Part shown: positions 1 to 23,556 of the stretch, piece after piece
Layout of the letters: each line of letters opens with the position of its first letter
Position numbering within the stretch: the first letter of the stretch is position 1
Virus record (IMG/VR): IMGVR_UViG_3300036770_001400
Span: 1-27,986 of that record
Origin: a virus
Length of the DNA: 27,986 nucleotides
Direction: 5' to 3' (one strand)
The notes under the pieces: model-generated
Databases searched by the model: none
Seen by the model: only the letters and a program-made list of their open reading frames with translations
Told to the model about the DNA's origin: nothing
Made by a program: the position numbers and the translations under genes

Positions 1-2
1 CA

Positions 3-1745: not shown

Positions 1746-1901
1746 ATGTTAAAATTAGTAACAGGGTTAGTTATACCCAGTAAAACAAAGCAACCCTTGA
1801 CTGATTCTAATCCTAAAAAGGGTAATATGCTCACAGGGGCAAAAGCAATTGACCCTAAGACTGATCCTAGTGTAAAGACTAAGAAGGTTTATTTAAAGTG
1901 A
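1746..1901 (+). CDS. Small basic hypothetical protein (51 aa)
   Basis: I place the start at the ATG at 1746, one base after the previous stop, because AGGAAG lies about 6 nt before it. A longer version from the ATG at 1695 would overlap the upstream gene by about 50 nt for no visible reason. The product is basic and Lys/Thr/Pro-rich with no recognisable domain. Its stop TGA overlaps the GTG start of the next gene. It fits the tight run of small genes here, but nothing in it indicates a role. Confidence 0.6.
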   Translation: MLKLVTGLVIPSKTKQPLTDSNPKKGNMLTGAKAIDPKTDPSVKTKKVYLK

Positions 1902-2170
1902 GAGCAAATGAGTTTATATTTGAAACAGTAAGTACTGGGTTAGGTGGTGGTAGCGCCGGCAATAATGGTGGACAAATGGTTGGTGGCCCTACAACATACG
2001 AACAAGAATATAATAAGTTCAAAAGAAAAGGACCTAGACGTATTACTGCTATGACCAATGAAGAGCAAATTGAAGAGAAATGGTCTGAAAAATATAAGAA
2101 GAGTATTAATTGTAACAATCCAAAAGGATTTAGTCAACGTGCCCATTGTCAGGGGAGAAAGAAAAAATGA
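1898..2170 (+). CDS. Small basic protein with capsid-targeting-like leader
   Basis: A 90-residue protein that starts at GTG 1898, overlapping the preceding stop. The start is supported by the N-terminus MRANEFIFE, which matches the M[RK]xxEF..[IL]xE pattern shared by three other proteins in this window and resembles the T4 internal-protein capsid-targeting sequence (MKTYQEFIAE). I-F-E would be the site for the gp21-type prohead protease. The rest is a Gly-rich linker (about residues 14-30), a basic helix, and a C-terminal segment with NCNNPKGFSQRAHC, a motif I have seen in other uncharacterised marine phage proteins. It may be a packaged internal head protein; that is inference from the leader only. 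Confidence 0.75.
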   Translation: MRANEFIFETVSTGLGGGSAGNNGGQMVGGPTTYEQEYNKFKRKGPRRITAMTNEEQIEEKWSEKYKKSINCNNPKGFSQRAHCQGRKKK

Positions 2171-2286
2171 GACACTACAAATTTAATGTACAATGTGCTA
2201 GTGGTCAATGGAAAGATTTTGAGTGTGATGCTACAGATTTTCGTGCAGCACGCCGTTTATTAGATGAATTTATAAAGGCAAATTAA
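2167..2286 (+). CDS. Very small hypothetical protein (39 aa)
   Basis: A short frame that starts with ATGA overlapping the stop of the previous gene and ends 1 nt before the Dps-like gene, filling an otherwise empty 117-nt gap. The product begins MRHYKFNVQC and ends in a helix rich in Arg, Leu and Asp. The overlap arrangement is the one used by genuine genes throughout this window, which is the main support. No family is recognised. Confidence 0.55.
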   Translation: MRHYKFNVQCASGQWKDFECDATDFRAARRLLDEFIKAN

Positions 2287-2287
2287 C

Positions 2288-2731
2288 ATGTTAGCAGAAG
2301 CGTTAAAAACATTATTATCAACCAGTTATGCGTTTGTAATTAAAGCACAATATTTTCATTGGAACGTTGAGGGTCCAAATTTTCCACAATATCATGAGTT
2401 TTTTGGTAACATATATGAAGAAGTATATGATAATTCAATTGACCAAACAGCGGAATATATTAGAACACTAGATAGTTATACGCCTGGTAGTATGACACGT
2501 TTTGCCGAACTATCTATTATACAAGAACAAACAATGATTCCACGTGCTGAGTTAATGTTGCAAGAACTTGAACAAGATAATATGAAGGTAATAGAATTAC
2601 TAAATCATTGTTTCGAACATGCAGAAGCAGAAAACAAACAAGGCATCGCAGATTATATTGCTGGACGATTAGATGCACATGAGAAACATGGTTGGATGTT
2701 ACGTAGTACATTAAAGAAAACCCGCGCATGA
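2288..2731 (+). CDS. Dps-like ferritin-superfamily protein
   Basis: A 147-residue all-helical protein with the Dps signature at the first helix-loop: FHWNVEGPNF (H24) followed by H36, and D52-x3-E56 in the second helix, corresponding to the ferroxidase ligands H51, H63, D78 and E82 of E. coli Dps. The Asp that normally follows the second His by four residues (D67 in E. coli) appears to be Gly40 or Asn41, and there is one extra residue before D52, so iron binding may be altered. Dps proteins form 12-subunit shells that oxidise Fe(II) and protect DNA. The extended Lys-rich N-terminal tail used by E. coli Dps to bind DNA is missing. It overlaps the heme oxygenase gene by 4 nt, suggesting linked roles in iron handling. 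Family assignment is secure; the role in the phage is inferred. Confidence 0.82.
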   Translation: MLAEALKTLLSTSYAFVIKAQYFHWNVEGPNFPQYHEFFGNIYEEVYDNSIDQTAEYIRTLDSYTPGSMTRFAELSIIQEQTMIPRAELMLQELEQDNMKVIELLNHCFEHAEAENKQGIADYIAGRLDAHEKHGWMLRSTLKKTRA

Positions 2732-3264
2732 CAATATTAAGAGAAGCCACGCATGCAAAGCATCGTGAAGTAGAAGCATTGCCTATGATTCAATGTATAA
2801 TGAACGGGCCAACAGTAGAGCAGTATGTTCATTATCTATTTGAATTGCAAGAAATTTATAGAGTTATAGAGTTAGCGGCAAGAAGTGCAGATATACTTAA
2901 AGATTTATCTGGTATAGAACGTTATGAACGTATTACAGAAGATTTAAAAGAGTTAAATCCTAATTATACTAGAGAGTTAATGCCTAGCACTAAAAAGTAT
3001 ATTGACCATATATGGGCAACAGCCTATCATCATCCTAATCTAATATTAGCACATGTTTACGTCAGACATATGGGCGATTTATACGGTGGTAAGTTAATGG
3101 CTAGAGTTGTTCCTGGTACAGGAAGAGCGTATATGTTTGAAGATAGACCCGGAGTCATTAAAGCATTCAATGACAAATTAACAATGGATCTAGCAGATGA
3201 GGCTAATTTAGCATTTGACTATTTTATACAGATTTTTGATGAACTACATAAGAGTCAAAACTAA
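2728..3264 (+). CDS. ho1: Heme oxygenase (biliverdin-producing, HO-1 family)
   Basis: A 178-residue helical protein with the two hallmarks of the family. The N-terminal REATHAKHREVE segment places the proximal heme ligand at H12, and the distal-helix motif YVRHMGDLYGGKL (residues 111-123, GDLYGG for the usual GDLSGG) lies over the heme. The enzyme opens heme to biliverdin, CO and Fe(II) in the cytoplasm using reducing equivalents from the host. It is shorter than typical bacterial and cyanobacterial enzymes of about 200-240 residues. Heme oxygenase genes are known in cyanophages, where they feed bilin synthesis; no bilin reductase is seen here. The 4-nt overlap with the Dps-like gene points to iron release and storage as an alternative purpose. 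Confidence 0.88.
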   Translation: MTILREATHAKHREVEALPMIQCIMNGPTVEQYVHYLFELQEIYRVIELAARSADILKDLSGIERYERITEDLKELNPNYTRELMPSTKKYIDHIWATAYHHPNLILAHVYVRHMGDLYGGKLMARVVPGTGRAYMFEDRPGVIKAFNDKLTMDLADEANLAFDYFIQIFDELHKSQN

Positions 3265-3275
3265 TAAATATATGT

Positions 3276-4475
3276 ATGAGAGCCTCAGAATTTACAAGCA
3301 AACTTAATGAAAACATGCTCATTACCGATGTGCCAAATGAAGATTGGCTAGAAGGTAAGATTTGGTATGCAAAAGAAAAAGGTAGAAATAGTTTTGGCGT
3401 TCCCTATATGGGAAGCAGTACTGCTTTTGTAAGACCTAATCCTGAAGTTTCTGTAGATATATTAAAACGCTTACCTGGTATGAGGGGCGAACAATCTAAC
3501 GTTCGCCATGAGGACCTAAAAGCCATTATGAAAATAATGAAAGATACAGGTAAGTTACCATTAATGAAAAATGGTAAAGAATATGCACCCTTCATTAATG
3601 TAGCATTCAATGGCGAAGCATGGGTCAATGAGGGAAATCATCGTATTATGGCTGCGGCTGCATTAGGTTGGGACAAGTTACCTATTGAGATAAGATACTT
3701 TGATGGTGGTGAACGTATTGAATCAGGTCCTATGTATCCACCAAAGATAGGTGCTGAAGAACCTAAGCCCGGTACTAAAATTATAATGAACGTAGACGAA
3801 GGCGTAGTAGATGAAGCAGAGTTAGGAACACCTGAGGCAAAAGAGATTGTATCTAAACTAAAACAAGCTGGCTACAAACAATTAGGTAGTGGCGCTGATG
3901 CTACTGTTTGGAGTAAAGATGTAGGTCAAGTAATTAAGGTTATCATGCCTGATAGTAAAGACATTACACAGGCAGCATATACATTTAAAAAGTTTTACGA
4001 ATTCTGTCAACAACATAAAGACATAGCATGTTTACCAAAATTTATACCTATACAAGGTAAAGATTATGTAGAGTTTAAGTTAGGTAACAAGAATTATATT
4101 CAAGTATCTATGGAGCAATTGTATCCTATTAAAGAAGAAAGTTTTGCTCAGGGTATTGTTTGGTTCTTTAGCGATTATGTTGCCAACAATACTAAATGGG
4201 ATAAAGTAGACAAACTTTTAAGTTTACCAAAAACATGGTATGACTTTCATACAGACAAAGCCAATCAATATGCTTTATCATGGGCTAACCTTAAGAGTAA
4301 CAAAAACAAATACGCAGAAATTCAATTACTATACACAGTAATGGAATTACTATATAGAACAGGTCGGTTAAATAAGATGTATTGGGACTTGCATACAGAT
4401 AATGCTATGCAACGTAAAGACGGTACAGTAGTTATTATTGATCCATGGTTTGAAAGATACGAGGGAACATTATGA
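3276..4475 (+). CDS. ParB-like / kinase-like fusion with capsid-targeting-like leader
   Basis: A 399-residue protein in three parts. Residues 1-12 (MRASEFTSKLNE) match the capsid-targeting-like pattern with L-N-E at the end. Residues about 45-145 contain VNEGNHRIMAAAALGW (from 117), the ParB/sulfiredoxin-like nucleotide-binding motif. Residues about 185-399 look like a small protein-kinase or aminoglycoside-kinase fold: glycine loop GSGADAT (204-210), Lys221 in VIKVI, catalytic loop D371-L-H373-x-x-N376, and metal-binding Asp389 in IIDPW. All key kinase residues are present. The substrate is unknown; a packaged enzyme acting on host proteins at injection is possible. There is no clear Shine-Dalgarno sequence. 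The downstream gene overlaps by 4 nt. Domain calls are by motif, not by alignment. Confidence 0.78.
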   Translation: MRASEFTSKLNENMLITDVPNEDWLEGKIWYAKEKGRNSFGVPYMGSSTAFVRPNPEVSVDILKRLPGMRGEQSNVRHEDLKAIMKIMKDTGKLPLMKNGKEYAPFINVAFNGEAWVNEGNHRIMAAAALGWDKLPIEIRYFDGGERIESGPMYPPKIGAEEPKPGTKIIMNVDEGVVDEAELGTPEAKEIVSKLKQAGYKQLGSGADATVWSKDVGQVIKVIMPDSKDITQAAYTFKKFYEFCQQHKDIACLPKFIPIQGKDYVEFKLGNKNYIQVSMEQLYPIKEESFAQGIVWFFSDYVANNTKWDKVDKLLSLPKTWYDFHTDKANQYALSWANLKSNKNKYAEIQLLYTVMELLYRTGRLNKMYWDLHTDNAMQRKDGTVVIIDPWFERYEGTL

Positions 4476-4852
4476 AAATAAGTGAAATTTTATACGAAGC
4501 AAAAGTTGATCCAGACTTTGACGATGATGAGGCTCCAGCACCAGATGCGGATCAAGACAAGATACCAAACATATTCATGCAAATGCGTAAGGCTGTAGAT
4601 ACAGAAGGCAATTACGAATTTAAGTTTCTAGATGGTAGCAAGCAAAAACTTGAAATGAAAGATATTGTGACATTTGTTAAGAAGTATACAAATGCAAAAC
4701 CTCTTGAAAAAGAAATGATGCAGAATAAGGCTATACAAAGTCCTAGTGGATTTATGTCAGTTGTTTACGCTGAGGAACCAACTAAACCTGATTTTAAAAT
4801 TAAAGGTTCAAGATACATGAGCAGTTTTGCAGGAGATTATGATGACAAGTAA
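4472..4852 (+). CDS. Acidic hypothetical protein with capsid-targeting-like leader
   Basis: A 126-residue protein starting with ATGA overlapping the previous stop. The N-terminus MKISEILYEAK fits the capsid-targeting-like pattern, with L-Y-E followed by Ala as in the T4 internal proteins. Residues about 13-30 are strongly acidic (Asp-rich), followed by a mixed domain (about 31-126) containing YEFKFLDGSKQKLEMKDIV. I have a sense that this domain recurs in uncharacterised T4-like phages but cannot name it. The acidic part could mimic DNA or prohead scaffold; this is speculation. It overlaps the nuclease gene that follows by 11 nt. Confidence 0.72.
   Translation: MKISEILYEAKVDPDFDDDEAPAPDADQDKIPNIFMQMRKAVDTEGNYEFKFLDGSKQKLEMKDIVTFVKKYTNAKPLEKEMMQNKAIQSPSGFMSVVYAEEPTKPDFKIKGSRYMSSFAGDYDDK
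4831..4835 (+). promoter_or_regulatory. Ribosome binding site deciding the nuclease start
   Basis: AGGAG stands 6 nt before the ATG at 4842 but only 3 nt before the tandem ATG at 4839, and it lies inside the longer frame that would start with TTG at 4827. It therefore favours 4842, which also gives a clean signal peptide. Confidence 0.6.
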
Positions 4853-5294
4853 ATTATTAAAAGGTATATTAGCATTTGCCATAGCAGCACTATCTAGTAC
4901 AGCATTTGCTCAAAAAATACCTCAGTCTGTACAGTATGACGTTACAATACTACGTGTTACTGATGGTGATACCGTAGTGTTTAAGGCAAGTTTTTTACCA
5001 GCACCCTTAAAGCCTGAATTGGCATTGCGTGTGTTTGGCGTTGATACTCCTGAAAAAGGTTTCAGAGCAAAATGTGATAGTGAAGCACAACGTGGTGCGG
5101 CAGCATCAGCATTTACCAAACAACTTGTAATGAATTCAAAAGTTCATCAAGTGCAACTTATGAATTGGGATAAGTTTGGTGGTAGAGTATTAGGCGATTT
5201 GTTACTAGATGGTAAGAGCCTAAGACAAATGCTTATCGCTAATAATTATGCTAGAGAATATTACGGCGAGGCAAAACAAAGTTGGTGTAACTAA
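4842..5294 (+). CDS. Exported thermonuclease (staphylococcal nuclease family)
   Basis: A 150-residue protein with a Sec signal peptide (Lys at 4 and 7, hydrophobic 8-19, cleavage after AFA at about residue 23) and one SNase domain. Conserved residues are present: Asp41 and Asp43 in TDGDT, Arg63 and Glu71 in RVFGVDTPE, and Arg115 in GGRVLGDL, matching D21, R35, E43 and R87 of Staphylococcus aureus nuclease. It should cleave DNA or RNA with Ca2+ in the periplasm or outside the cell. Cys78 and Cys149 could form a disulfide. T4-like phages usually degrade host DNA with cytoplasmic nucleases, so an exported one is unusual; removing extracellular DNA or blocking a second phage are possible reasons. 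The next small gene overlaps its stop by 1 nt. Confidence 0.85.
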   Translation: MTSKLLKGILAFAIAALSSTAFAQKIPQSVQYDVTILRVTDGDTVVFKASFLPAPLKPELALRVFGVDTPEKGFRAKCDSEAQRGAAASAFTKQLVMNSKVHQVQLMNWDKFGGRVLGDLLLDGKSLRQMLIANNYAREYYGEAKQSWCN

Positions 5295-5425
5295 TGCCTT
5301 GGTATATACATCTATATCATGCAGCTTGGTTACTAGCAATAATACTGGCTGCAATTTTTTACGGTTGGCATTTAGCAATAGCAATATTATGCTTTGCTTT
5401 TTTCATCGCCATTATTAATTCATAG
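5294..5425 (+). CDS. Tiny membrane protein (43 aa)
   Basis: A frame using TAATG overlap with the nuclease stop. The product is almost entirely hydrophobic: MPWYIHLYHAAWLL then two hydrophobic runs (about 12-23 and 26-41) separated by YGWH, so one or two membrane passes. Size and shape would suit a small holin or an accessory membrane peptide, but the sequence itself does not show which. It is the last gene before a hairpin-rich gap and a late promoter. Confidence 0.55.
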   Translation: MPWYIHLYHAAWLLAIILAAIFYGWHLAIAILCFAFFIAIINS

Positions 5426-5426
5426 A

Positions 5427-5454
5427 ACATACCCTAGGACCGTTAGGGTTATGT
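5427..5454 (+). other. Stable hairpin after the nuclease operon
   Basis: ACATA-CCCTA pairs with TAGGG-T-TATGT: a ten-base-pair stem with one bulged T (5449) and a seven-base loop. It lies 2 nt after the tiny membrane gene. It lacks an immediate T-run, so it may protect the 3' end of the transcript rather than terminate by itself. A second short GC-rich hairpin (about 5455-5469) follows directly. Confidence 0.5.
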
Positions 5455-5481
5455 GCGCGGCTGCTGCGCTACTGAAGGATT

Positions 5482-5512
5482 CGCTACCCCGTAGGTAAAA
5501 GTGAGCGTTTTT
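5482..5512 (+). terminator. Possible intrinsic terminator
   Basis: CGCTAC (5482-5487) can pair with GTGAGCG (5501-5507) leaving one bulged base, and five T residues follow at 5508-5512. It would separate the upstream genes from the late operon that starts at 5574. The stem is short and the loop long, so the call is tentative. Confidence 0.4.
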
Positions 5513-5526
5513 ATTCCTCTAAAATC

Positions 5527-5542
5527 CTATAAATATTTATAG
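5527..5542 (+). promoter_or_regulatory. T4-type late promoter inside a 16-bp palindrome
   Basis: CTATAAATATTTATAG is a perfect palindrome that holds the exact T4 late -10 element TATAAATA at 5528-5535 on the plus strand and again on the minus strand (5541-5534). T4 late promoters need only this element, read by the gp55 sigma with gp33 and the gp45 clamp. The plus-strand start would be near 5541, giving a leader of about 33 nt that carries AGGGG before the ATG at 5574. Confidence 0.75.
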
Positions 5543-5573
5543 CCTTACAAGGCTTAACTCAGGGGCAATAAAA

Positions 5574-7013
5574 ATGATAAAAAAGATCCTTGCGTTGGCC
5601 GTGGCTACAGCCTATTTGGCTGTAGCACCGATCCATACATTTGCGCAAACTACTAATACAAGTACACAAAGTACTACTGGTGGCACAACTACCAGTACAA
5701 CCACTCCTATCAATCAAGGTGGTTATGATAGTAAAACATTAGTAGATACTAACAGTACTAGCAATAGCACAAGTACGGTAACTACTAACAATAACACTAC
5801 AACTAATAATACTAGCACAAGCACTAGTACAGTAAACAGTACCAATACTAACACAAACACTTCAACATCAACTAACGTTAATACAAATAATAATATTCAA
5901 AGTGGTACGGTTACTAACATAAATCAGAATACCAATAATGGTACAATGACATATAACAACAATAATGTTAACAGTGGTACGGTAACATATAATAACAATA
6001 ATAACAACGTTCAAAGTGGTACAGTAACATATAATAACAACAACGTGAATAGCGGAACTCAAACATTTAATAACAACAATAATACTACTAGTACCAATAC
6101 TAATAATAACGTAATGAGCGGGTCTGTTACCTATACAAACAACAACGTTAATAGTGGTACAATGACATACAATAATAACAATGTTTCAACTGCGACTAAC
6201 ATTAATAAAAATGAAAATACAGGAACAATGACATATAACAATAATAATGTGTCAACTTCTACAAATATAAACAAAAACGAAAATACCGGCACTATGACTT
6301 ACAATAACAACAATGTAAGCACTAGTACTGCTACAAATAATAATACAAATACTAACATTAATACCGGTGACATGACCAATCGTAATATTAATACTAGTAC
6401 CAGTGTGAGCACAAATAATAACAATAATATTACTACCAGTACTAACAATAATATCAACACTGGTGACATGACCAATCGTAATATTAATACTAGTACTTCA
6501 ACTTCAAACAACGTGAACACCAATAACAACTCCAGCACAAGTAATAATACTAATGTAAACATTCAGCAGGGTGAAATGACCAATCGTAATATTAACGAAA
6601 CCACTGTTACACAAAAAGTTATTCAACCCCCACCAACTGCTATTGCACCTGCAATGATGAGTGCAGGTACTGACCTTTGCGTTACTGGTATAAGTGGAGC
6701 AACTCAAACTCAAATATTTGGTATGAGTTTTGGTTCTACTATGCGTGATGATAATTGTGAAAGATTAAAGTTAAGCAAGACTATGTACGACATGGGAATG
6801 AAAGTTGCAGCCGTTGCATTGATGTGCCAAGATGAACGTGTATTTAAGGCTATGGAAATGGCAGGTACACCTTGCCCATATATGGGTAAAATAGGTGAGC
6901 AAGCATCACAAGCATGGACCGACAATAAAAAAGAACGTCCTGATTCAAAGAAAGGTTTCTTTGGTAAACTTAGTGCATTATTCAGTAGTGACGATGAGAC
7001 AAGAGTACAATGA
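5574..7013 (+). CDS. Exported Asn/Thr-rich repeat protein
   Basis: A 479-residue protein with a Sec signal peptide (Lys3-Lys4, hydrophobic core to about 19, cleavage after TFA near residue 24). Residues about 25-110 are Thr/Ser/Asn-rich. Residues about 108-340 hold 12 repeats of the form x-G-[TSDE]-[VMQ]-T-[YFN]-x-N, with the Gly at 111, 123, 135, 148, 160, 182, 194, 216, 238, 264, 296 and 332. After a Pro-rich linker (about 350-358) comes a C-terminal domain of about 120 residues with four Cys (CVTG, NCERL, MCQDE, PCPYMG), suggesting disulfides in the periplasm. It ends in a basic and then acidic tail. It is first in a late operon and overlaps the next gene by 4 nt. Surface adhesin or fibril former are guesses; no characterised family is recognised. 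Confidence 0.82.
   Translation: MIKKILALAVATAYLAVAPIHTFAQTTNTSTQSTTGGTTTSTTTPINQGGYDSKTLVDTNSTSNSTSTVTTNNNTTTNNTSTSTSTVNSTNTNTNTSTSTNVNTNNNIQSGTVTNINQNTNNGTMTYNNNNVNSGTVTYNNNNNNVQSGTVTYNNNNVNSGTQTFNNNNNTTSTNTNNNVMSGSVTYTNNNVNSGTMTYNNNNVSTATNINKNENTGTMTYNNNNVSTSTNINKNENTGTMTYNNNNVSTSTATNNNTNTNINTGDMTNRNINTSTSVSTNNNNNITTSTNNNINTGDMTNRNINTSTSTSNNVNTNNNSSTSNNTNVNIQQGEMTNRNINETTVTQKVIQPPPTAIAPAMMSAGTDLCVTGISGATQTQIFGMSFGSTMRDDNCERLKLSKTMYDMGMKVAAVALMCQDERVFKAMEMAGTPCPYMGKIGEQASQAWTDNKKERPDSKKGFFGKLSALFSSDDETRVQ
5895..6596 (+). repeat. Coding repeat array (12 degenerate Asn-rich units)
   Basis: The DNA shows recurring units built around agtggtac-[ga]-gtaacatataataac and later accggtgacatgaccaatcg-type units, spaced irregularly by 36-96 nt. 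The units keep the reading frame and differ mainly at synonymous and spacer positions. Three subfamilies are visible: SGTVTYNN, TGTMTYNN and TGDMTNRN, in that order, which suggests serial local duplication. Confidence 0.75.
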
Positions 7014-8911
7014 AATATCTTATCATATTATTGCTAAGTTTATATAGTGGGTTTGTTAGTGCGCAAAATGTAACCTCACTGGATCCTACGCAGGTGTATA
7101 ATACTAATAACATTGTTAACATTGGTACTACCCCTACCTCAACTACTAGTACATGGCAAAATTTAGGACTAGTGAATCAGGGGTTGCCATGTTGGGCACC
7201 TGAAGATGGATTTAAAGGTGCTTATTGCGGACCTCTTCCGTACTATAATCAAGGCTCATTTAATTTCAGTTATGGATTAACAGATGTTTATCAAATAGCA
7301 AACATAGCAGCCGCACTTCCAAATTTAGGTACAGGATTGCGTGTCAATGGCTACAACTATAGTTTTACGGCAAAGAACGGCAACGGTTGGGATAACGGAC
7401 AAATTGATTATCTATCAGCATATGTCAATTTTTATGGCAGCGATGGCAAATCTGTAAGATATGATTATTACGATTTAACTTATAAATTTGATTGGTCTAA
7501 TTTTAATTTTAGTAAGACATTTGATACACCCTATGCAAGTAAAGATTTAAGCACGGTTCAATATGGATTTGTAGGCGGTGATAGTAATGGTTGGGCCGGC
7601 CCATACGGACCCGAAATTATCAATGTTAGTTTTAGTTTGAAATATAGTGTTGATCCTTGCTATACAAATGTATTGTATAGCCCAACCTGCCCTGGATATT
7701 TAGAAGCACTTAATAAATTGACTGCTACGACACCTATAGAACCAACTGCAACTACTCAACCATCTATGAATGAACCAATATCTGTGTCATCAACTACAGA
7801 AACTAGCAAATCTACTGCGAGTACCAGTATAGTTCAAGTTCCAATATTAACAAATCAACAACCAAATATTGTTTCTAGTTCATCAGTTGAAACGAAAGTT
7901 ACTAGTTCAACAAACACAGGTCCTTCTTTATCCACTGTATTATCAATGATTAAATCTAATCAAGCAAAAGAACAGAGCATTGCTCAAAATGCTGTAAATC
8001 AAGCCAATCAAGTAGCACAAATGGCAATAACTGAGACAGAAAAAATTGCCTTATCAGTTGCTACAACTAGTTCTATACAAAGTACAGAGATTGCTAATGA
8101 ATCAATTTTTAAAATAGAAATTAAAAAAGATAATAAGATAACCACATCTAATAGCATTTTAGATTTATTTGCACTGCCTACAACAAACTCATTAAATGTT
8201 AATAATATTCTTATGCCACAAAATAAAGTTACACAGCAGACAACTTTACCAACTAATCAGTTAGGATTACCAATCAATCAGTCTATTATTGTAGTAGGTA
8301 AAGAAAATGTACCGTCATCATTGTACTCTTTGGTACCCATGCAATCTAACAATTTTTCAACTACACCATATGTTTCAATAAAACCTGAAGCAAACGTACA
8401 GTCTAATAGTCAACAACTTCAAGAAACAGCGTCAATGGTATCATTGAAACCACCGGTAGAATTATCATTAAGTATTCAAACTACTAATCAAGTAACACAA
8501 GAAATAATCACATCGCAGCAAACTAAACCAATGGTAAATTTATCATCTACCCAACATGTAGAAGTTTCTAATACATCAAATTCATTATTTGCAAAAAGAG
8601 GTGATCCATTATCAGACTATATTGAACAAAATAATATTTTAGTTGCAATGGTTCAACCTGAAATGAAAACTTCAACTGTAAAAACAAATGTACAAGATAA
8701 CGAATTAGCAGGTGGTGTAAGAATAGAAAGAATTGCAGTCAACCCTGCAGGATTCAATGTTTACACTACTACTGTGTTAAAAGATATAGCATTTTATGCA
8801 CCAAAAGAGATTTATAGAAACCAAAAAACAATTGACAATACTAGAGCATTACGTCAATTGAGTTCAGACAAGTTGCACCAAGAAATGGTAGAGCAACAAT
8901 ATAGGAGATAA
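7010..8911 (+). CDS. Large exported protein with N-terminal globular domain and Ser/Thr/Gln-rich tail
   Basis: A 633-residue protein with a signal peptide (hydrophobic 4-14, cleavage after VSA near residue 18). Residues about 20-235 look globular and beta-rich, with many aromatic and Gly residues and Cys at PCWAPEDGFKGAYC and DPCYTNVLYSPTC, pairs that could form disulfides. Residues about 236-540 are low complexity in Ser, Thr, Gln and Asn. The last 90 residues (from about GDPLSDYIEQNN) look folded again. It overlaps the repeat protein by 4 nt and is followed 2 nt later by a membrane coiled-coil protein, so the three are one operon under the 5528 late promoter. No enzyme motif is seen. Cell-surface or envelope action late in infection is inferred. 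Confidence 0.8.
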   Translation: MKYLIILLLSLYSGFVSAQNVTSLDPTQVYNTNNIVNIGTTPTSTTSTWQNLGLVNQGLPCWAPEDGFKGAYCGPLPYYNQGSFNFSYGLTDVYQIANIAAALPNLGTGLRVNGYNYSFTAKNGNGWDNGQIDYLSAYVNFYGSDGKSVRYDYYDLTYKFDWSNFNFSKTFDTPYASKDLSTVQYGFVGGDSNGWAGPYGPEIINVSFSLKYSVDPCYTNVLYSPTCPGYLEALNKLTATTPIEPTATTQPSMNEPISVSSTTETSKSTASTSIVQVPILTNQQPNIVSSSSVETKVTSSTNTGPSLSTVLSMIKSNQAKEQSIAQNAVNQANQVAQMAITETEKIALSVATTSSIQSTEIANESIFKIEIKKDNKITTSNSILDLFALPTTNSLNVNNILMPQNKVTQQTTLPTNQLGLPINQSIIVVGKENVPSSLYSLVPMQSNNFSTTPYVSIKPEANVQSNSQQLQETASMVSLKPPVELSLSIQTTNQVTQEIITSQQTKPMVNLSSTQHVEVSNTSNSLFAKRGDPLSDYIEQNNILVAMVQPEMKTSTVKTNVQDNELAGGVRIERIAVNPAGFNVYTTTVLKDIAFYAPKEIYRNQKTIDNTRALRQLSSDKLHQEMVEQQYRR

Positions 8912-8913
8912 AA

Positions 8914-9501: not shown

Positions 9502-9502
9502 A

Positions 9503-10237
9503 TTATACTTTACTATAAACAAAGTATAGTCTATTGTTTGCATCTTTCTTAAATGTATCTAACGTTAGATTAAACTTCTTAGCAAATTCGTGTGCTATTT
9601 CAAAGGACCATGGGAACACATCAACCCATGGTCCCTTTTCATGTTGAATACCAGGATTGACTCTAAAGAACATTTTACCTTTAGGTGCTAACATTTTAAC
9701 ACAGTTAGCCAATCGTTGTTCAATATCCTCTTTACTATTAAAGTTAATAGAACCTAATGCCATGATAGCATCGAAACTTTCTTCTACGGCTGCATACTCA
9801 AGTATATCAACTTGATAATCAGCACAATTATTGTATGGATCAATTCCTATTAAATTAGGGATTCTGTCTTTAAACTGATTGTATCCACAACCCACATCAA
9901 GTACAGCCTTAGGGTTCATTTTGTTAATTTCTTCAACTAATTGCCAACCCGTATAACTATACTTTTCAGTACTGGGTTTCCATATTTCACCAAAGAATCT
10001 TCCTGAATATCTAATGTCAAAGTCATCTACTATGTCCTTAACAGTACCTTTAAACTCACTACTCAAGTCTAGCATAGATTCAATTTTCTGTTTAAATTTA
10101 TCAAATCTAGCAGGAGTCCATGGAAGTTGCTTTACTACAGTAAATTCGTTGATATCATTGTAAATTGTTTGGTACTTAGGCAATTTAAATGCATCAAGCA
10201 AATTTTCTATCATAAGTTTATAAATTTTAGTGTTCAT
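9503..10237 (-). CDS. Class I SAM-dependent methyltransferase
   Basis: A 244-residue protein with methyltransferase motif I VLDVGCG (112-118), the acidic residue ending strand 2 in GIDPY (D133), and a motif IV-like FDAIMALGSINF (155-166). The N-terminal 100 residues are helical and specific to this protein, perhaps for substrate recognition. The motif IV lacks the DPPY or NPPF of DNA amino-methyltransferases, so a small-molecule, sugar or protein substrate is more likely. It is one of only two minus-strand genes in the window, placed between two late operons, which suggests independent acquisition. Target unknown. Confidence 0.82.
   Translation of the reverse strand: MNTKIYKLMIENLLDAFKLPKYQTIYNDINEFTVVKQLPWTPARFDKFKQKIESMLDLSSEFKGTVKDIVDDFDIRYSGRFFGEIWKPSTEKYSYTGWQLVEEINKMNPKAVLDVGCGYNQFKDRIPNLIGIDPYNNCADYQVDILEYAAVEESFDAIMALGSINFNSKEDIEQRLANCVKMLAPKGKMFFRVNPGIQHEKGPWVDVFPWSFEIAHEFAKKFNLTLDTFKKDANNRLYFVYSKV
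9504..9528. terminator. Possible bidirectional terminator between convergent genes
   Basis: TATACTTT (9504-9511) and AAAGTATA (9521-9528) are perfect 8-bp arms around a 9-base loop, located exactly where the late operon and the minus-strand methyltransferase meet. The arms carry their own T and A runs, so the hairpin could act on both strands. It is AT-rich and lies within the 3' end of the methyltransferase, so the call is modest. Confidence 0.45.
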
Positions 10238-10277
10238 AATAATTTTCTCAAGATTTTAAAAATTTTTATCCATATGG

Positions 10278-10285
10278 GATAAATA
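10278..10285 (+). promoter_or_regulatory. Late-type promoter of the transporter operon
   Basis: GATAAATA differs from the T4 late element TATAAATA by one base. The start of transcription would be near 10291, 18 nt before the TctA ATG. The same octamer lies at exactly the same distance from the gene at 14736, which supports its being functional. Confidence 0.55.
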
Positions 10286-10308
10286 TCTACTCAATACTAT
10301 TACTTATC

Positions 10309-11760
10309 ATGGAATACATCGCTTCATTAATTTTAGGCACACTTTATGGGTTTTTGTTTGGTATTATACCCGTAGCAGGCGCCGGCGTAGGACTAATAAC
10401 AATATTTGGATTTTTGGATACATTTCGTACAGAACCATATGCGTTAGTAGTATTCACTACCTCATTAGTTGTAGCAGCCACAATAGGCGACAGTTTTGCT
10501 AGTGTGGTTATGAATATTCCCGGGGCTAGTGGCAGTGCCGCAACAATGGTAGACGGGTTCCCCATGACTAAGCGTGGTGAGGCTGCAAGAGCATTAGGAG
10601 CCGCATTAAGCACTAGCACAGTCAATGGTGTTATTTGGGGAATATTAGTGTTTTTATTTTTGCCCATGTATGCAGGATTAATCCTTAAATTTGGGATACC
10701 TGAAATTTTAGCATTTTTAGCATTGGCATTCGCTAGTGTTTGTTTTATTAATAATAAGTATTGGTTCAGAGGTATACTAGCATTAGCATTGGGTATATTT
10801 TTAGGGCTAGTAGGACAAAACCCAATCACAGGTGCAGAGCGTTGGACATTTGGTTGGGACTATCTAGGTGGTGGTATACAACTTGCTCCTTTACTTGCTG
10901 GCGTATTAGCCATACCTGAATTATTAGAAGCATATCAGAATAGACATACGCAAGAACGAGTACAGAATATTAAAACTGAATGGCAGCAAATATGGCAAGG
11001 TTTTGTTGACAGTTGGAAACACAGATGGGACGGGTTACGAGGTGGATTCATTGGTGCTATAGTAGGTGTCATACCGGGTATAGGTGGTAGTGTTGCTGAT
11101 TGGTTAGCATATGGACAAACAGTTGCACTTAATAAGAATGAAAAGATCGCATTTGGCGATGGTAATGTTAAGGGTGTTATAGGTTGCGAAGGTGCAAATA
11201 ATGCGCAAAAAGCGACAAGTTATGTACCAACTGTATTGTTTGGTATACCCGGTGCGCCTTTTGAGGCTATCATTATAGCATTGTTTTTACTAGTAGGTAT
11301 TGAACTTGGTTCTCCGTCGCTATTAAATGACTTATCGTTCTTTGATAATCTTGCTAGTAGTTACATGTACAGTCTATTATTAAGTTTTGTATTAGGATTA
11401 TTTTTTATACGTTATGCAGTACAGATAACTAACTTACCCTTCAGTTATTATTTTTGGCCTGTATTAGGATTACTAGTTTGGAGTAGTGTACAATATACGG
11501 GCTATTGGGAAGATTATGTTTTCTTTATTATGTGTTGTGTGTTTGGTCTTGCGTTACGTAAGTACAAGTTTAGCAGGGCAGCACTTGTTATAGGATATGT
11601 ATTAGCAGATAGACTAGAAGGTACTTTCTTGCAATACGAAAAGTTATATGATTTCATTGATATTTTTACAAGACCTATCAGTGGATCATTAATGGCTCTG
11701 ACGTTCGTAGCCATTATATACGGCGTATTTTTCAACAAAACGAGGATAAAATATGTTTAA
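10309..11760 (+). CDS. tctA: TctA-type permease of a tripartite tricarboxylate transporter
   Basis: A 483-residue polytopic inner-membrane protein with the two conserved halves of TctA. In the first half, a Gly-rich loop (GIIPVAGAGVG, about 18-28) is followed by MNIPGASGSAATMVDGFP (about 68-85). In the second half, GVIPGIGGSVADWLAYG (about 256-272) is followed by GCEGANNAQKATSYVP (about 288-303) and FGIPGAPFEAI. Around 10-12 membrane segments are apparent. TctA forms the channel of a secondary transporter that takes up citrate or other carboxylates delivered by a TctC binding protein. The small TctB subunit is not encoded nearby. The start has no Shine-Dalgarno sequence. It overlaps the next gene by 8 nt. 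A transporter core in a T4-like phage is very unusual; substrate unknown. Confidence 0.9.
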   Translation: MEYIASLILGTLYGFLFGIIPVAGAGVGLITIFGFLDTFRTEPYALVVFTTSLVVAATIGDSFASVVMNIPGASGSAATMVDGFPMTKRGEAARALGAALSTSTVNGVIWGILVFLFLPMYAGLILKFGIPEILAFLALAFASVCFINNKYWFRGILALALGIFLGLVGQNPITGAERWTFGWDYLGGGIQLAPLLAGVLAIPELLEAYQNRHTQERVQNIKTEWQQIWQGFVDSWKHRWDGLRGGFIGAIVGVIPGIGGSVADWLAYGQTVALNKNEKIAFGDGNVKGVIGCEGANNAQKATSYVPTVLFGIPGAPFEAIIIALFLLVGIELGSPSLLNDLSFFDNLASSYMYSLLLSFVLGLFFIRYAVQITNLPFSYYFWPVLGLLVWSSVQYTGYWEDYVFFIMCCVFGLALRKYKFSRAALVIGYVLADRLEGTFLQYEKLYDFIDIFTRPISGSLMALTFVAIIYGVFFNKTRIKYV

Positions 11761-12310
11761 GAAGATGATAGCAATTTTAGCAATTATGATTGCAGGTACA
11801 TCAGCATATGCTGAAGATAAGATTGAGTTAGGTTATCGATTTGACGACCAACGTAATACTACCAATGACCAATATGCTTTGACAGTAGATTGGCAGACTA
11901 AAATCAATAGTAATTTTAGTTGGGGTTTAGGATTTAGAAATACTGAGCGTGAACAAGATAGCCGGGTCACCAATCGTTATATGGTTAAATTAAACTATGA
12001 TTACAATATGCTTTATGTTAACACTGCTGTAGGACAAAAACATCAAAGTTTAAAACCTAGTACAGATTTTTGGCAAGCAGAAGCCGGAATCAAATATAAG
12101 GTAAGTGATAACGTTCAAGTTAAAGTAGGCTATGCATACCGTGAAGGGTTTGGTGGCAAAGATGTAGACTATCATGAGGGTCCTAGAGTTGCTGTCAAGT
12201 ACAAACTAGATCCACGTTGGGCAGTCAATGTCAAGTACGATTACTTTGATTTTGGTAATGGCGTAAAACGTGATCGTTATGGCATTTCAATCGAAAAGAG
12301 ATTATTCTAA
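11753..12310 (+). CDS. Small outer-membrane beta-barrel protein
   Basis: A 185-residue protein with a Sec signal peptide (Lys3-Lys4, cleavage after AYA near residue 20). The mature part alternates hydrophobic and polar residues in about eight predicted strands (for example YALTVDWQTKI, FSWGLGFRNTE, AVKYKLDP), and the protein ends in Phe (IEKRLF), the classical outer-membrane barrel insertion signal. GAGGA lies 6 nt before its ATG. It sits between a TctA permease and a TctC binding protein, so it may act as the pore or receptor that admits the same substrate through the outer membrane. It could instead be a surface-masking barrel that excludes other phages. Confidence 0.78.
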   Translation: MFKKMIAILAIMIAGTSAYAEDKIELGYRFDDQRNTTNDQYALTVDWQTKINSNFSWGLGFRNTEREQDSRVTNRYMVKLNYDYNMLYVNTAVGQKHQSLKPSTDFWQAEAGIKYKVSDNVQVKVGYAYREGFGGKDVDYHEGPRVAVKYKLDPRWAVNVKYDYFDFGNGVKRDRYGISIEKRLF

Positions 12311-12320
12311 GGAGAACTAA

Positions 12321-13376
12321 ATGAAGAAGTTACTAGCATTATTTGTAATGATGTTTGCCGCTTCTTCCGCTTTTGCGGACTATCGTTTGATAGTCCCGCA
12401 ATCAGTGGGAGGTGGAACTGATGTATGGGCAAGAATCGTAGCAAAAGAACTTGAAAAGAAGTTAGGTGAGAAGGTAGTTATCGAAAACATTCCTGGCATC
12501 AATGACATACCCGGGTTTAATAAGTTTCATAATGAATTACGCAAAGACCCCAAAACAATTATGGTTGCACATGGTGGCAACGCAGAGAGTTTCTTAATAC
12601 ATAAGGTAGATTATAATTATCGTGATTATGCTCCTGTTGGATTACAGAACTTAACGATTGTAGTTGGGCGCAGATCAGATAGTGATCCATTCAAAGAAGT
12701 AAGATTTAGCGCAGGGTCAGGTATGAATCCTGATCTTATGGCTATAACTATGCTTGTATGTGGACCATTAAAAACAGTAAAAGACTATCAAAACTGTTTT
12801 AATAGCAAAGTAATCTATGTTGCTGGTATGAAGGGCAATGAACGTAGACTTGCATATATGCGAGGAGAACTTAACGTTACCCGTGAAACAACTGCTGCCT
12901 ATTTTAAGCATCCTAAGCAATTAAAAGAAAACGTTGACTGGTTTGCACAAGGTGTATTAGATTTAAACACAGGGAGAATAGTTGCTGATGCAAACTTTTC
13001 CGGTGTACACTTTAACGAAGTTTACCGCAAAAAATGGGGAGTGGAACCTTCAGGTGAATTTTATGATGCATATCTACTAATAAAGAATTATAGAGATGTG
13101 TTGCAAAAATCACTGTGGGTAGATAAGAACAACCCTAATAGAGATAAACTTGTTAAGGCAATGCGTGATATGTCTAAAGATCCCGAAAGTATTGCTGCAA
13201 TCGAAAAAGATACAGGTAAGTACGAGTGGGTAATAGGTGATGATGTAAATAAGGCAATGAATGCATTAGAAAAAATGACTACAAAGAAAGCACTTAAAGA
13301 TTTAGTTTGGTGGACCAGTGTAGTTGTTAAGCAAGATGCATATTACAAAGAAGAAATTGCAATAAAGGCTAAATGA
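12321..13376 (+). CDS. tctC: Periplasmic BUG/TctC-family substrate-binding protein
   Basis: A 351-residue protein with a Sec signal peptide (cleavage after AFA near residue 19). The mature N-terminus RLIVPQSVGGGTDVWARIV (22-40) is the classic first ligand loop of BUG proteins, and VVIENIPG (52-59) follows, although the usual PGAGG is replaced by PGINDIPG. A second ligand loop is probably FSAGSGMNPDL (about 129-139), and two Cys about 13 residues apart may form a disulfide. BUG proteins bind carboxylates such as citrate or glutamate and pass them to TctA. A strong TAAGGAG precedes the start. It overlaps the next gene by 4 nt. Family call is strong; ligand unknown. Confidence 0.88.
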   Translation: MKKLLALFVMMFAASSAFADYRLIVPQSVGGGTDVWARIVAKELEKKLGEKVVIENIPGINDIPGFNKFHNELRKDPKTIMVAHGGNAESFLIHKVDYNYRDYAPVGLQNLTIVVGRRSDSDPFKEVRFSAGSGMNPDLMAITMLVCGPLKTVKDYQNCFNSKVIYVAGMKGNERRLAYMRGELNVTRETTAAYFKHPKQLKENVDWFAQGVLDLNTGRIVADANFSGVHFNEVYRKKWGVEPSGEFYDAYLLIKNYRDVLQKSLWVDKNNPNRDKLVKAMRDMSKDPESIAAIEKDTGKYEWVIGDDVNKAMNALEKMTTKKALKDLVWWTSVVVKQDAYYKEEIAIKAK

Positions 13377-14044
13377 TGAAATATATTTTCGTAGCAGGCG
13401 CTCCTGGCTCTAAGTGGAGTAGCGTAGTAAAAAACATTTATTATAGTCCAAGTATTGACAGGAGTGATTACAGCGACGAAAGAACATACCACCATGATGC
13501 AGACGGAGGAGTAATGCACCTTATGCATCTTGGTGCGTATTTTGATCCTGGTATGGAGTTCGAACTTCCAGAAAGTATGTCAACATTAACTAAGAAACAG
13601 GCAGAAGAGTTATTTGACAAACCTTTCAGTGGTACAGGTGTTAGAATCATTAAAAGTCATATCTTTAGTTATTATGAAAACATACTGTATCTTAAAGAAT
13701 TATGGCCAGAATGCCCTATTATATTAGTACATCGTAGCAATGATAGTTGTTTAGGATGGTGGGTACGCTGTGGTCATTTTAATATCACTTACCCAAAATA
13801 TGATAAATATTATGTGGATCTAAGAACTATGTCTAAAATTATTGACCGTCAAAATGAAGGTATATTGCAGGCATGGAACGCTAAGATAGGAACTCTACCA
13901 TCATTTGATAATACTTTCACTATGAAGGGCGGGTTGATTACGTTTAATAATATAGAGACTGCTGGATTCTGTAGGATACAACCTCCTCCAGAGCAGTACA
14001 AACAAGACTATACTATTAAAGATATTAATGTAAAGGTGATATAA
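13373..14044 (+). CDS. Sulfotransferase-like P-loop protein
   Basis: A 223-residue cytoplasmic protein. The N-terminus YIFVAGAPGSKWSSVV (4-19) resembles the phosphosulfate-binding loop of sulfotransferases, and RIIKSH followed by CPIILVHRSNDSCLGWW resembles the second (3'-phosphate) binding region. The same arrangement could also mean a P-loop kinase, since G9-x2-G12-x-K14-x-S16 is near a Walker A motif. Two ATG codons stand in tandem (13373 and 13376); either may be used. It overlaps TctC by 4 nt and the following oxygenase-like gene by 1 nt, so it belongs to the transporter operon. The substrate cannot be deduced. Confidence 0.62.
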   Translation: MMKYIFVAGAPGSKWSSVVKNIYYSPSIDRSDYSDERTYHHDADGGVMHLMHLGAYFDPGMEFELPESMSTLTKKQAEELFDKPFSGTGVRIIKSHIFSYYENILYLKELWPECPIILVHRSNDSCLGWWVRCGHFNITYPKYDKYYVDLRTMSKIIDRQNEGILQAWNAKIGTLPSFDNTFTMKGGLITFNNIETAGFCRIQPPPEQYKQDYTIKDINVKVI

Positions 14045-14709
14045 TGAAAAGTAGTTGGGATTCGACTAAACCAAGAAGTAAGTATCATTTTCGTAATGAT
14101 TACTTTGACCCTGAGTTTGATAAGGTTATCAAACTAGGAAAATTCAAACTTGACGTAACTAAAGAAGTTGAAGAACTTGTAGCAAAATCTAAGCCTGCTA
14201 CATGGAGAACTAGGGGTGCTGTCGGTAAATCTAGACCAGAAGAAGAACTAGCGTCAGAAGATTATGATTTAGAACGTTTTGGATATGGGAAAGATTATCA
14301 AATTACTCATCTTAATTGGGATATACCTGAAGTACTTCAGAAAGTCAGCAAATTATTTGCACTAGATGACTGTATGAATCGTATTCATGTTCAGAAACCC
14401 GGTGAAGTTTGGAATTTGCATTTGGACAAATTAGAAAAATGGAATCCCGAAAATCCTGACAGTATCATTAGGATTCAGGTAGCATTGACTGATTGGCAAC
14501 CAGGGCAGTTTTGGAGTTATGGAAACTATCAGCATAGCATGTGGAAAGTAGGGGAAGTAACTTCATTTGATTGGCAAAACTTGCCACACAGTACTGCAAA
14601 TGCTAGTCATTACCCTAGAGTTACCTTTCAAATTACAGGGGTAAAAACATCTCAAACTGAGTTATTCTTGGCTGAACTAGCGTCTATTAATGAATACGAA
14701 ATTAGATAA
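14044..14709 (+). CDS. 2-oxoglutarate/Fe(II) oxygenase-like protein
   Basis: A 221-residue protein with an apparent double-stranded beta-helix iron site: H126-L-D128 in WNLHLDKLE, H182 in LPHSTANASHY, and Arg192 (PRVTFQITG) as the probable 2-oxoglutarate ligand. The surroundings (IHVQKPGEVWNLHLD, then RIQVALTDWQPGQFW) are reminiscent of aspartyl/asparaginyl beta-hydroxylase-type enzymes. Several 2OG-Fe(II) oxygenases of unknown role are known from T4-like cyanophages. It uses the TAATG overlap with the sulfotransferase-like gene and ends the transporter operon. A late-type promoter overlaps its stop codon. Confidence 0.7.
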   Translation: MKSSWDSTKPRSKYHFRNDYFDPEFDKVIKLGKFKLDVTKEVEELVAKSKPATWRTRGAVGKSRPEEELASEDYDLERFGYGKDYQITHLNWDIPEVLQKVSKLFALDDCMNRIHVQKPGEVWNLHLDKLEKWNPENPDSIIRIQVALTDWQPGQFWSYGNYQHSMWKVGEVTSFDWQNLPHSTANASHYPRVTFQITGVKTSQTELFLAELASINEYEIR

Positions 14710-14712
14710 ATA
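14705..14712 (+). promoter_or_regulatory. Late-type promoter before the small gene and zincin
   Basis: GATAAATA overlaps the end of the oxygenase gene. The expected transcript start is near 14718, giving an 18-nt leader that carries AAAGGGG about 7 nt before the ATG at 14736. The octamer and distance are identical to those before TctA. Confidence 0.55.
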
Positions 14713-14735
14713 CATGTATCTAAAGGGGTATTACA

Positions 14736-14969
14736 ATGGCTATTATAAACAAGTATGAGTCTAGTAACGGAGATGATTTCCGTACATTTGATGATTGGTT
14801 ACGAACAACACTATTTGAAGAATACGAAAAATTTAAAGACACGGTAACATTTCCTAGTCCTGAGTATCAAACATACTACGAGAATTGGATTAAGTCTGAA
14901 AAGATTACAAAACACACTGTGTTAGAAGATGGTGTTGAAGTATCTGTTACTTATTATCCTGTAGAATGA
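14736..14969 (+). CDS. Small acidic hypothetical protein (77 aa)
   Basis: A 77-residue protein with a strong ribosome site (AAAGGGG). It is rich in Asp, Glu, Tyr and Trp, with no membrane segment or Cys. Its stop overlaps the ATG of the zincin gene, so the two are translated together and it might be a partner, regulator or inhibitor of the peptidase; nothing in the sequence proves this. No family is recognised. Confidence 0.72.
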   Translation: MAIINKYESSNGDDFRTFDDWLRTTLFEEYEKFKDTVTFPSPEYQTYYENWIKSEKITKHTVLEDGVEVSVTYYPVE

Positions 14970-15655
14970 GATATAAAGAATTCATAGTCGAAAAGAAAAA
15001 GAGAAAGAAATCTAGTAGATATTTCTTTCCCGGATATGCCTATTTTGGTGGTTCTGATTCTGGCGAAGCCGGCGACGGCGGTGGCGGAGAAAGTATGTAC
15101 GAGAGTCCTGAACTTGAATTGGCTAAGAGACTGCCTAGCCTTGAAAAGCATGACTATGATACTATTGATAAATTAATGCGAAAGATTAGTGCTAAACATA
15201 AGATAACAGGTAAAGCACTGCACGATTTATTTGTTAAGAAATATAAAAAGACCCCTGACAATTGGATTAAAGGTAAACTTGATGAAGTCGATAATCCAGA
15301 TCCTGACTTAGATAAAGAAGTGCAGAAGTTTGCACAATGGGCAGCAAAAAAGTTAAATCTACAAAACATACCCAAGATTGAACTTAGCATGGATACTAAA
15401 GAGGCTCAACAAGGGCATCATACTGGATCACACACTGAAGGTTCAGACAGTGTTTGGGTATACAGTGCTAACCGTAATCTTGTCGATATATTAAGAACAG
15501 TATTCCACGAACTAGTACACGTTCGTCAGGGTGAATTGGGTATGATAAAACCTGGTGATAGTTATCCCGGCAGCCCAATTGAAGCAATGGCAGATATGCT
15601 CGCCGGTAAGTACATTAAAATATACGGCGAAAAAAATAGACATATATTCCAATAA
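14966..15655 (+). CDS. Zincin metallopeptidase with capsid-targeting-like leader
   Basis: A 229-residue protein. Residues 1-9 (MRYKEFIVE) match the capsid-targeting-like pattern with I-V-E as the presumed prohead-protease site, followed by a basic patch KKKRKK. Residues about 18-45 are Gly/Tyr-rich (RYFFPGYAYFGG, then GDGGGGES). Residues about 110-229 contain the peptidase: FHELVHVRQ gives the zinc ligands H181 and H185 with Glu182, and PIEAMADMLAG about 20 residues later supplies the third ligand Glu206. This is the HExxH...E (gluzincin-like) arrangement. If the leader works as in T4, the enzyme would be packed in the head and injected with DNA, where it could cleave a host target. The target is unknown. 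Confidence 0.82.
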   Translation: MRYKEFIVEKKKRKKSSRYFFPGYAYFGGSDSGEAGDGGGGESMYESPELELAKRLPSLEKHDYDTIDKLMRKISAKHKITGKALHDLFVKKYKKTPDNWIKGKLDEVDNPDPDLDKEVQKFAQWAAKKLNLQNIPKIELSMDTKEAQQGHHTGSHTEGSDSVWVYSANRNLVDILRTVFHELVHVRQGELGMIKPGDSYPGSPIEAMADMLAGKYIKIYGEKNRHIFQ

Positions 15656-23349: not shown

Positions 23350-23556
23350 ATGGATGATACTTACGTTATTGCTGGTTCTGTACCCAATACTAATACAATT
23401 GTAATGAATAGCAATATGACAGAAATGTTGCGTATAGCAGAAGATGGTTTCTATATTCGCGGCGTAAAGATTGAGCAGGATGAAAAAGAAGCAGAAAAGG
23501 TATATAAAGCCTTTCATCAGTGGTTAACGTGGGCAACACTTAATAGGACATACTAA
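23350..23556 (+). CDS. Small conserved hypothetical protein (68 aa)
   Basis: A 68-residue protein starting 2 nt after the previous stop. It has a short beta region with MLRIAEDGFYIRG (25-37) and a helical C-terminus with EKEAEKVYKAFHQWL. No membrane segment or Cys. The compact form and the position in an early-type cluster suggest a host-interaction or regulatory protein, but nothing specific can be shown. Confidence 0.72.
   Translation: MDDTYVIAGSVPNTNTIVMNSNMTEMLRIAEDGFYIRGVKIEQDEKEAEKVYKAFHQWLTWATLNRTY

Follow-up and report, generated by a model that had tools for sequence, protein, structure and literature searches.

A nine-residue leader resembling the T4 capsid-targeting sequence on unrelated proteins of an uncultured T4-like jumbo phage

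Bacteriophage T4 is the textbook example of injected internal proteins, and few such cargoes are known beyond this phage because the protein bodies evolve fast and share the tag alone. In T4, the capsid-targeting sequence of the internal proteins IPII and IPIII (Mullaney and Black 1996, as told in PMC9026906 and PMC9958956) loads proteins that are ejected, and gp21 cuts after L/I-X-E; mutations in IPIII point mainly to residues 4 and 7 for targeting and to residues 8 and 10 for processing (PMC9026906). IPI, which counters restriction, and Alt, an ADP-ribosyltransferase, are precedents for the cargo (PMC9958956), and the review by Black already suggests that varied cargo could travel via the tag in related phages (PMC9026906). 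The present work deals with a stretch of viral DNA of 27,986 bases (IMG/VR record IMGVR_UViG_3300036770_001400, hereafter the window, meaning the whole stretch analysed), in which several genes with unrelated bodies start with a leader of this kind.

The window is a 28-kb piece of an uncultured T4-like jumbo phage and encodes a gp43-type DNA polymerase (PHROG 262), whose top matches among cultured phages are Sinorhizobium phage Phosso (49%) and Agrobacterium phage Atu_ph07 (46%), with 42-44% to Xanthomonas phage XaC1 and to RaK2/GAP32/CBB-like phages. Closer relatives are numerous in IMG/VR, the best 80 loci being 80-93% identical in the polymerase, one of which is a 335-kb contig (G001). With a probability of about 0.85, the leader is a T4-type capsid-targeting sequence, which would be cut by a gp21-type protease after [LI]xE and would load a large set of injected effectors. 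The tag itself and its loading of unrelated proteins are known in T4; as far as the open-access literature shows (preprints excluded), the nine-residue variant, the second leader class, the breadth of cargo that jumbo phages show, the junctions resembling gp23 and the agreement of the leader with published cyanophage virion enzymes are new.

A short leader on many unrelated bodies

The first-pass annotation of the window had proposed a common leader on four genes, and their N-termini were found as described, all on the plus strand, namely MRANEFIFE (1898..1924), MRASEFTSKLNE (3276..3311), MKISEILYE (4472..4498) and MRYKEFIVE (14966..14992). The common form holds in part: M[KR]xxE[FI][ILV]xE is exact in three of them, and the gene at 3276 matches through residue 6 only. 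Two classes of leader exist, that is MRAxEF[IL]xE (class 1), like the T4 internal proteins, and MKIxE[IL][IL]xE (class 2), like a propeptide which we take to be that of gp24. The leader at 1898 belongs to class 1, with a cut predicted from the motif after E9, the one at 4472 to class 2, and the one at 14966 is a class 1 variant. The leader at 3276 is a degenerate class 1 form with LNE at residues 10-12, which appears stretched or decayed because a homologue (L330:2855) begins with MRAQEFITE before aligning with the same body. As also proposed, the four bodies are unrelated and fall into four separate similarity clusters.

The shared leader on the window genes is real. In the window, the motif occurs at 3/38 called starts versus 0/234 internal Met (the latter figure by subtraction). 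As the regular expression was written after the finding had been seen, related contigs rather than the window serve as the test: in seven contigs selected through their DNA polymerase alone (G001-G007), the motif stands at 21/1,181 starts versus 0/4,980 internal Met (Fisher p = 7e-16), these 21 starts corresponding to 19 distinct proteins because two of the contigs, G002 and G004, overlap. Among 264,512 internal positions, the core.[KR]..EF[IL].E was not found once. Genes were called by an in-house script, with some starts shifted. At the DNA level, a search of IMG/VR for MRAxEFIxE returned at least 120 stretches; 95 positions with the pattern lie in the 80 loci kept, where 75 are called gene starts; of the other 20, some fall at contig ends or hinge on the choice of start, and a few seem spurious.

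A test free of circularity is provided by genes picked on their first six residues and nothing else (M[KR]A.[ED]F; 42 after dereplication). Residue 7 is then I in 29, L in 8, V in 4 and T in 1 (I/L/V in 41/42; I/L in 37/42), and residue 9 is E in 41/42, followed by residues 10-14 with no consensus; the conservation thus stops sharply at residue 9. The sole exception (T7, K9) fits the window gene at 3276. For class 2, the regular expression, which also accepts MKINQIxxE starts and some forms one residue shorter, matches 29/3,858 genes versus 0/18,939 internal Met.

Behind these leaders, the diversity of bodies is considerable. The fetched loci together yield 196 different leader proteins, many of which come from contigs chosen by motif and to which the 3276 protein of the window was added by hand. 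They group into 66 body clusters when similarity is required across half of both bodies; this grouping supersedes a single-linkage version without coverage limits, which chained multidomain proteins into 28 clusters. Pfam was run on the leader proteins of the window and on 30 hand-picked ones from relatives, and the latter gave Zeta_toxin/AAA_33, Amidoligase_2, several GNATs, LRV, NT5C and three GH19 chitinase/lysozyme-like domains, with no match for over a third of the 30. Below the cut-off among leader proteins are ART-PolyVal, a HAD phosphatase, Kinase-PolyVal and, just below, ParB_N. PHROG 15752, a T7 gp0.7-type kinase family, also matches leader proteins of L340, L211 and L246 (1.2e-6 to 3.8e-4). 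The GH19-type leader proteins (L340:10205-12475, L263:1164-2540 and L211:2992-3612) are possible head-carried wall hydrolases, judging from their domains. Besides, a tandem pair of leader proteins of about 125 aa lies at L087:969-1729 (G001:74969-75729), and belongs to the most populous leader family, a cluster of 57 members, for which no PHROG match was found in the two members tested and no match among 50,697 phage records for the one queried.

Prohead protease, capsid cut site and virion enzymes

A capsid-targeting leader calls for a prohead protease and a matching site in the major capsid protein, both of which the first-pass annotation had named as checks. In the window itself, a fragment devoid of head genes, PF03420 gave no match. 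In its relatives, the S77 prohead protease is present in 8/10 large leader-bearing contigs, that is G001 and 7/9 others, the two without it being fragments of 129 and 102 kb; gp23 is present in 8/8 contigs tested (G001 and seven others). Neither S77 nor gp23 was found in 8/9 other polymerase-found contigs (42-131 kb, fragments), and a control family search gave no match in 14 named genomes. The absence of a protease, which the annotation had regarded as fatal to its proposal, is therefore not what these genomes display. As for the capsid site, T4 gp23 loses 65 residues (PMC9958956) and its propeptide ends in FLTE65 before A; at the aligned position, in the gp23s of the clade formed by the window and its relatives, an S is preceded by LLAE or LAE, or an N by LKE, and Atu_ph07, Phosso and RaK2 have LME, LME and LFE there, respectively.

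A profile of the gp23 cut site (P1 onward, T4 left out) was slid over 49,412 Glu-centred windows from 3,858 genes. Nine matches outside gp23 score above 25, the next scoring 20.6, and 6/9 coincide with the junction of a leader, at residue 8 or 9, such as MRAQEFIKE followed by NASVGATSSGSVATVA and MKISEILE followed by SATAGATSAGNVSV, the remaining three lying at residues 19, 100 and 213; as a base rate, residues 7-10 hold 2.1% of the Glu-centred windows. The small SVAT proteins with these gp23-like junctions are probably one family rather than six independent cases. Of note, the gp67 position of a head cassette is occupied by a small protein (L377:494-718) that begins with MKLFEMFDE, a start close to a leader; its relatives begin with MKLLEMFDP or MRLLEMFNA.

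In cyanophages, similar leaders stand on enzymes of published virions. MKxxx[EQ]F[ILV]xE, which keeps the ten residues of the T4 tag, was searched in 21 genomes and matches three proteins in T4 (ipII, ipIII and 61.1), five in S-SRM01, one of which holds an in-frame stop, and three in P-SSM2; it was found in none of the other 18 genomes and the reversed control matched once overall. One P-SSM2 match is a cytidyltransferase (T4-GC 190), a match made before the presence of T4-GC190 in the S-SM1 virion (PMC3037559) was known, and the S-SM1 copy begins with MKKFSAFLNE. More generally, the NMNAT/cytidylyltransferase family bears the leader in 5/5 phages and is reported from the virions of S-SM1 (PMC3037559), S-SCSM1 and S-CREM2 (PMC10665884). 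For S-CREM2, 52 virion proteins are listed (Table 3 in PMC10665884); M.{4,5}F[ILVM].E matches 4/219 annotated genes, namely a SAM hydrolase, an APH/ChoK-like kinase, the cytidylyltransferase and the hypothetical ORF13 (open reading frame 13), the four being ORF6, 13, 14 and 154, all of them in the virion list versus 0/167 others (p = 0.0029), with the proviso that this expression was fixed after the virion N-termini were known, its three positions being those of the T4 mutants.

Taken together, the correspondence with residues of IPIII, the S77 protease and the four out of four in S-CREM2 support the annotation in viewing the leader as a T4-like capsid-targeting sequence removed by a gp21-type protease. 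Late in infection, the nine N-terminal residues, F6 above all, would dock the protein into the prohead core, where the S77/gp21-type protease would cut after [LI]xE at residue 9 and free the body inside the head. DNA would then be packaged around the freed bodies, which would leave with it at the next infection and act on the host before phage gene expression. Docking, packaging, cutting and injection in the clade, including those of the four window proteins, are inferred, as is an effector function of the bodies: kinase, ADP-ribosyltransferase, GNAT and peptidase bodies would suit host takeover, and GH19 bodies may instead help DNA through the wall.

Several points weigh against this reading. 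The virion support comes from cyanophages, the clade proteins being known from sequence alone, and some bodies also occur leader-free. The S-CREM2 support amounts to four genes, a looser expression giving 6/52 versus 4/167 (p = 0.013), and in 50 kb of S-SCSM1 the leader is on 1/15 virion genes versus 0/56 others (p = 0.21), the sole leader gene being the virion NMNAT. The authors of the S-CREM2 study state that the enzymes may contaminate the CsCl preparation and leave cargo versus contamination open (PMC10665884). Compared with the T4 tag, the leader lacks one residue and shows no clear equivalent of Y4, the other residue for targeting; in T4 itself, IPI escapes the leader expression. The strict pattern occurs twice in Phosso, once in Atu_ph07 and not in RaK2, GAP32, CBB, KVP40 or S-PM2; given its rarity in the nearest cultured relatives and its absence from KVP40 and S-PM2, it is therefore not shared by all T4-like phages. 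Noise affects a looser 10-residue DNA pattern, which turns up in unrelated genomes roughly as often as in controls, with 3 matches versus 2 reversed controls in phage G, 2 in KVP40, 2 in Atu_ph07 and 1 in CBB.

Other explanations have to be weighed against the same data. It is unlikely, yet the most serious of them, that the leader anchors structural or scaffold-linked components of the prohead core, cut then retained or degraded instead of being injected as effectors. Head-cassette proteins do start similarly, the gp67-position protein of G013 beginning with MKLFEMFDE, and class 2 resembles the propeptide presumed to be that of gp24. However, many bodies are enzymes or host-takeover-like domains that vary between relatives, and the T4 tag of the same kind loads proteins that are ejected (PMC9026906). 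A sorting or complex-assembly tag for some other structure (membrane, replication compartment or tail), with the [LI]xE end being incidental, seems less likely still; the restriction of the clade proteins to sequence data leaves room for it and the GH19 lytic bodies could equally serve the tail or lysis, but it would have to accommodate a conservation ending exactly at E9, the match to the gp23 cut site and the concordance with the S-CREM2 virion.

Two further explanations, which deny the leader any function as a protein or any reality, carry very little weight. The likeness could stem from a short element acting in translation or in the mRNA, or from a 5' end duplicated not long ago; in favour of this, R2 is AGA in 83% versus 39% in bodies, and E5, A3 and I7 are also less neat in their codons. 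Against it, the silent sites at F6 (TTT.73 in leaders,.72 in bodies) and E9 (GAA.82 and.80) follow body usage, which argues for selection on the protein, eight G014 leaders differ at silent sites, and a frame-bound pattern ending at residue 9 would not be expected; the ordinary codon usage at F6 and E9 thus disfavours a signal at the RNA level. Chance likeness of short N-termini might be invoked for three or four genes in a 28-kb window, but it is refuted by p = 7e-16 in independent relatives, and the reversed pattern is found 0 times versus 38 true matches in 10 large contigs, nine of which were chosen by motif; those longer than 250 kb hold 3-8 strict matches each.

Leader genes of the window and their surroundings

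The gene at 1898..2170 (+) has a GTG start and encodes a 90-aa basic protein ending in a Cys module, SINCNNPKGFSQRAHCQGRKKK; its body has 22 similar genes in the fetched loci, itself counted, and cyanophages have the Cys module too, in proteins encoded close to gp23 or to the small subunit of the terminase. Across 33-2170, otherwise unrelated proteins share short Cys modules in shuffled fashion, namely CWxGYxxxGTKxKxGxxVxNCVP and SINCxNPKGFSQxAHCxGRKK, the second matching at the DNA level an S-SRM01 gene adjoining the terminase small subunit (82% over 88 bases) and a P-TIM68 gene two genes past gp23 (77%).

The leader protein encoded at 3276..4475 (+) is 399 aa long. Its residues ~13-160 form a separate domain, which also stands alone with an intact leader (L330:2855-3340), and residues 184-390 (3825..4445, +) are protein-kinase-like, with a match to PHROG 15752 (E 3.5e-10). 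In its predicted model (mean predicted local distance difference test score, pLDDT, 68.9), the best Foldseek match is the APH-type YtaA (E 1.8e-4), with low template modelling scores, and a homologue in L287 matches Kinase-PolyVal (3.5e-4; 21.1 bits for a cut-off of 27). Family match and predicted fold concur in designating this protein as a putative T7 gp0.7-type or APH-like kinase. The annotation had called it a ParB/kinase fusion, of which the kinase part stands; Pfam gave no ParB in this protein, ParB_N being seen solely in another leader protein, in L217 (26.1 bits, just below the cut-off).

The class 2 gene at 4472..4852 (+) encodes a 126-aa acidic protein with no family match. At 14966..15655 (+), the 229-aa leader protein is metallopeptidase-like, with a HELVH zinc-protease motif (15506..15520, +) invariant in the alignment, as are H181, E182, H185 and E206 across 18 aligned sequences; its model (pLDDT 73.5) gives weak minigluzincin/IrrE-like Foldseek matches, none at E <= 0.001. 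A PDB profile search with the protein labelled A2 returned nothing useful.

A fifth leader gene probably opens the window. The ORF at 33-944, cut off by the window start with its frame open upstream (1..944, +), has several homologues that begin with MKINQIxxE and then TAGxVATVAKPMG; since its G001 relative begins with MKINQIILE followed by TSAGATGSGSVATVAKPMG and the window frame opens with SGSVAAVAKPMG, the leader of this truncated gene would lie beyond the window edge. Conversely, MENREFALVE at 23556..24008 (+; PHROG 17812), which the annotation had taken for a weaker match, is rejected as a leader: 0/43 homologues, itself counted, bear one, and the stretch is the conserved start of the body.

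Around these genes, the T4-late-promoter-like TATAAATA occurs once per strand in the window, near 5530, and at none of the leader genes. A Ferritin/Dps-like protein (Pfam 4.6e-20) overlaps a heme oxygenase (1.9e-17) at 2288-3264, a Staphylococcal-nuclease-like protein with a signal-like start (5.6e-8) is encoded at 4839-5294, and the protein encoded at 5574-7013 combines a signal-like start with long repeats of Asn, Thr and Ser, where 6693-6918 matches hypothetical genes of Pelagibacter phages at the DNA level (69-76%). The region 10309-13376 begins with TctA, the membrane subunit of a tripartite tricarboxylate transporter (Pfam 1.2e-92). After it come a beta-barrel of porin type (11753-12310) and a protein that looks secreted and matches TctC below the threshold (0.013); together they make a possible phage-borne nutrient-uptake set. 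A PP-loop (TilS-like) ATPase (6e-33) follows at 15693-16286, and at 24407-25183 a cytidylyltransferase-like domain is fused to a mannose-6-phosphate isomerase C-terminal/cupin domain, in this case leader-free.

The leader among known systems

If the tag can be read in other T4-like phages, sequence alone would yield a list of the proteins that first meet the host, that is of candidates for counter-defence and host takeover such as kinases, ADP-ribosyltransferases, acetyltransferases and peptidases. For a giant phage family, the probable injected cargo becomes readable from the genome through a nine-residue tag on dozens of unrelated proteins. The leader also offers a reason for the recurrence of kinases and NMNAT-like enzymes in cyanophage virions, where cargo versus contamination is testable with existing spectra.

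Among other jumbo phages, phiKZ and SPN3US possess a gp21-like protease and processed inner-head proteins (PMC5694885, PMC7411985, PMC9026906) but, unlike the clade, mostly have long propeptides with S/A-X-E or AXE sites, and neither strict leader pattern was found in phiKZ or SPN3US. Polyvalent proteins, for which injection alongside phage DNA has been proposed (Iyer et al. 2017, PMC5512222), include ART and GNAT domains (PMC7824862), and some leader proteins match the kinase and ART models of the Pfam PolyVal series, below their cut-offs (Kinase-PolyVal 21.1 bits for 27; ART-PolyVal 27.9 bits for 31.2); unlike polyvalent proteins, the domains here are mostly on separate shorter proteins, each head-tagged. 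The cyanophages S-CREM2, S-SM1 and S-SCSM1, of the family Kyanoviridae, resemble the clade by F[IL]xE leaders on a kinase, SAM hydrolase and NMNAT/cytidylyltransferase detected in virions by mass spectrometry and differ by the 10-residue T4 spacing; in the portions of the cyanophage papers drawn upon here, a targeting leader is not mentioned.

The closest likeness is with T4 itself. The leader differs from the T4 tag in having nine residues, usually MRA.EF[IL].E, rather than ten (MKTYQEFIAE), in the existence of a second class, where the equivalent of T4 F7, kept as F6 in class 1, is I or L, and in more numerous and more enzymatic bodies. It agrees with T4 in being a short N-terminal tag on unrelated proteins, with F before [LI]xE, a gp21-type end, an S77 protease and a similar gp23 site, its F6, I7 and E9 corresponding to IPIII residues 7, 8 and 10. 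On balance, and with less assurance than for the leader's identity, the comparison favours [F/I][ILV]xE leaders as a general code, movable from protein to protein, for an address in the head, common to jumbo phages, cyanophages and T4 within the T4 supergroup. By this code, freshwater-type jumbo phages would deliver dozens of enzyme families, and a small leader family would even have copied the capsid maturation site; the injected effector set of uncultured phages would therefore be readable from N-termini.

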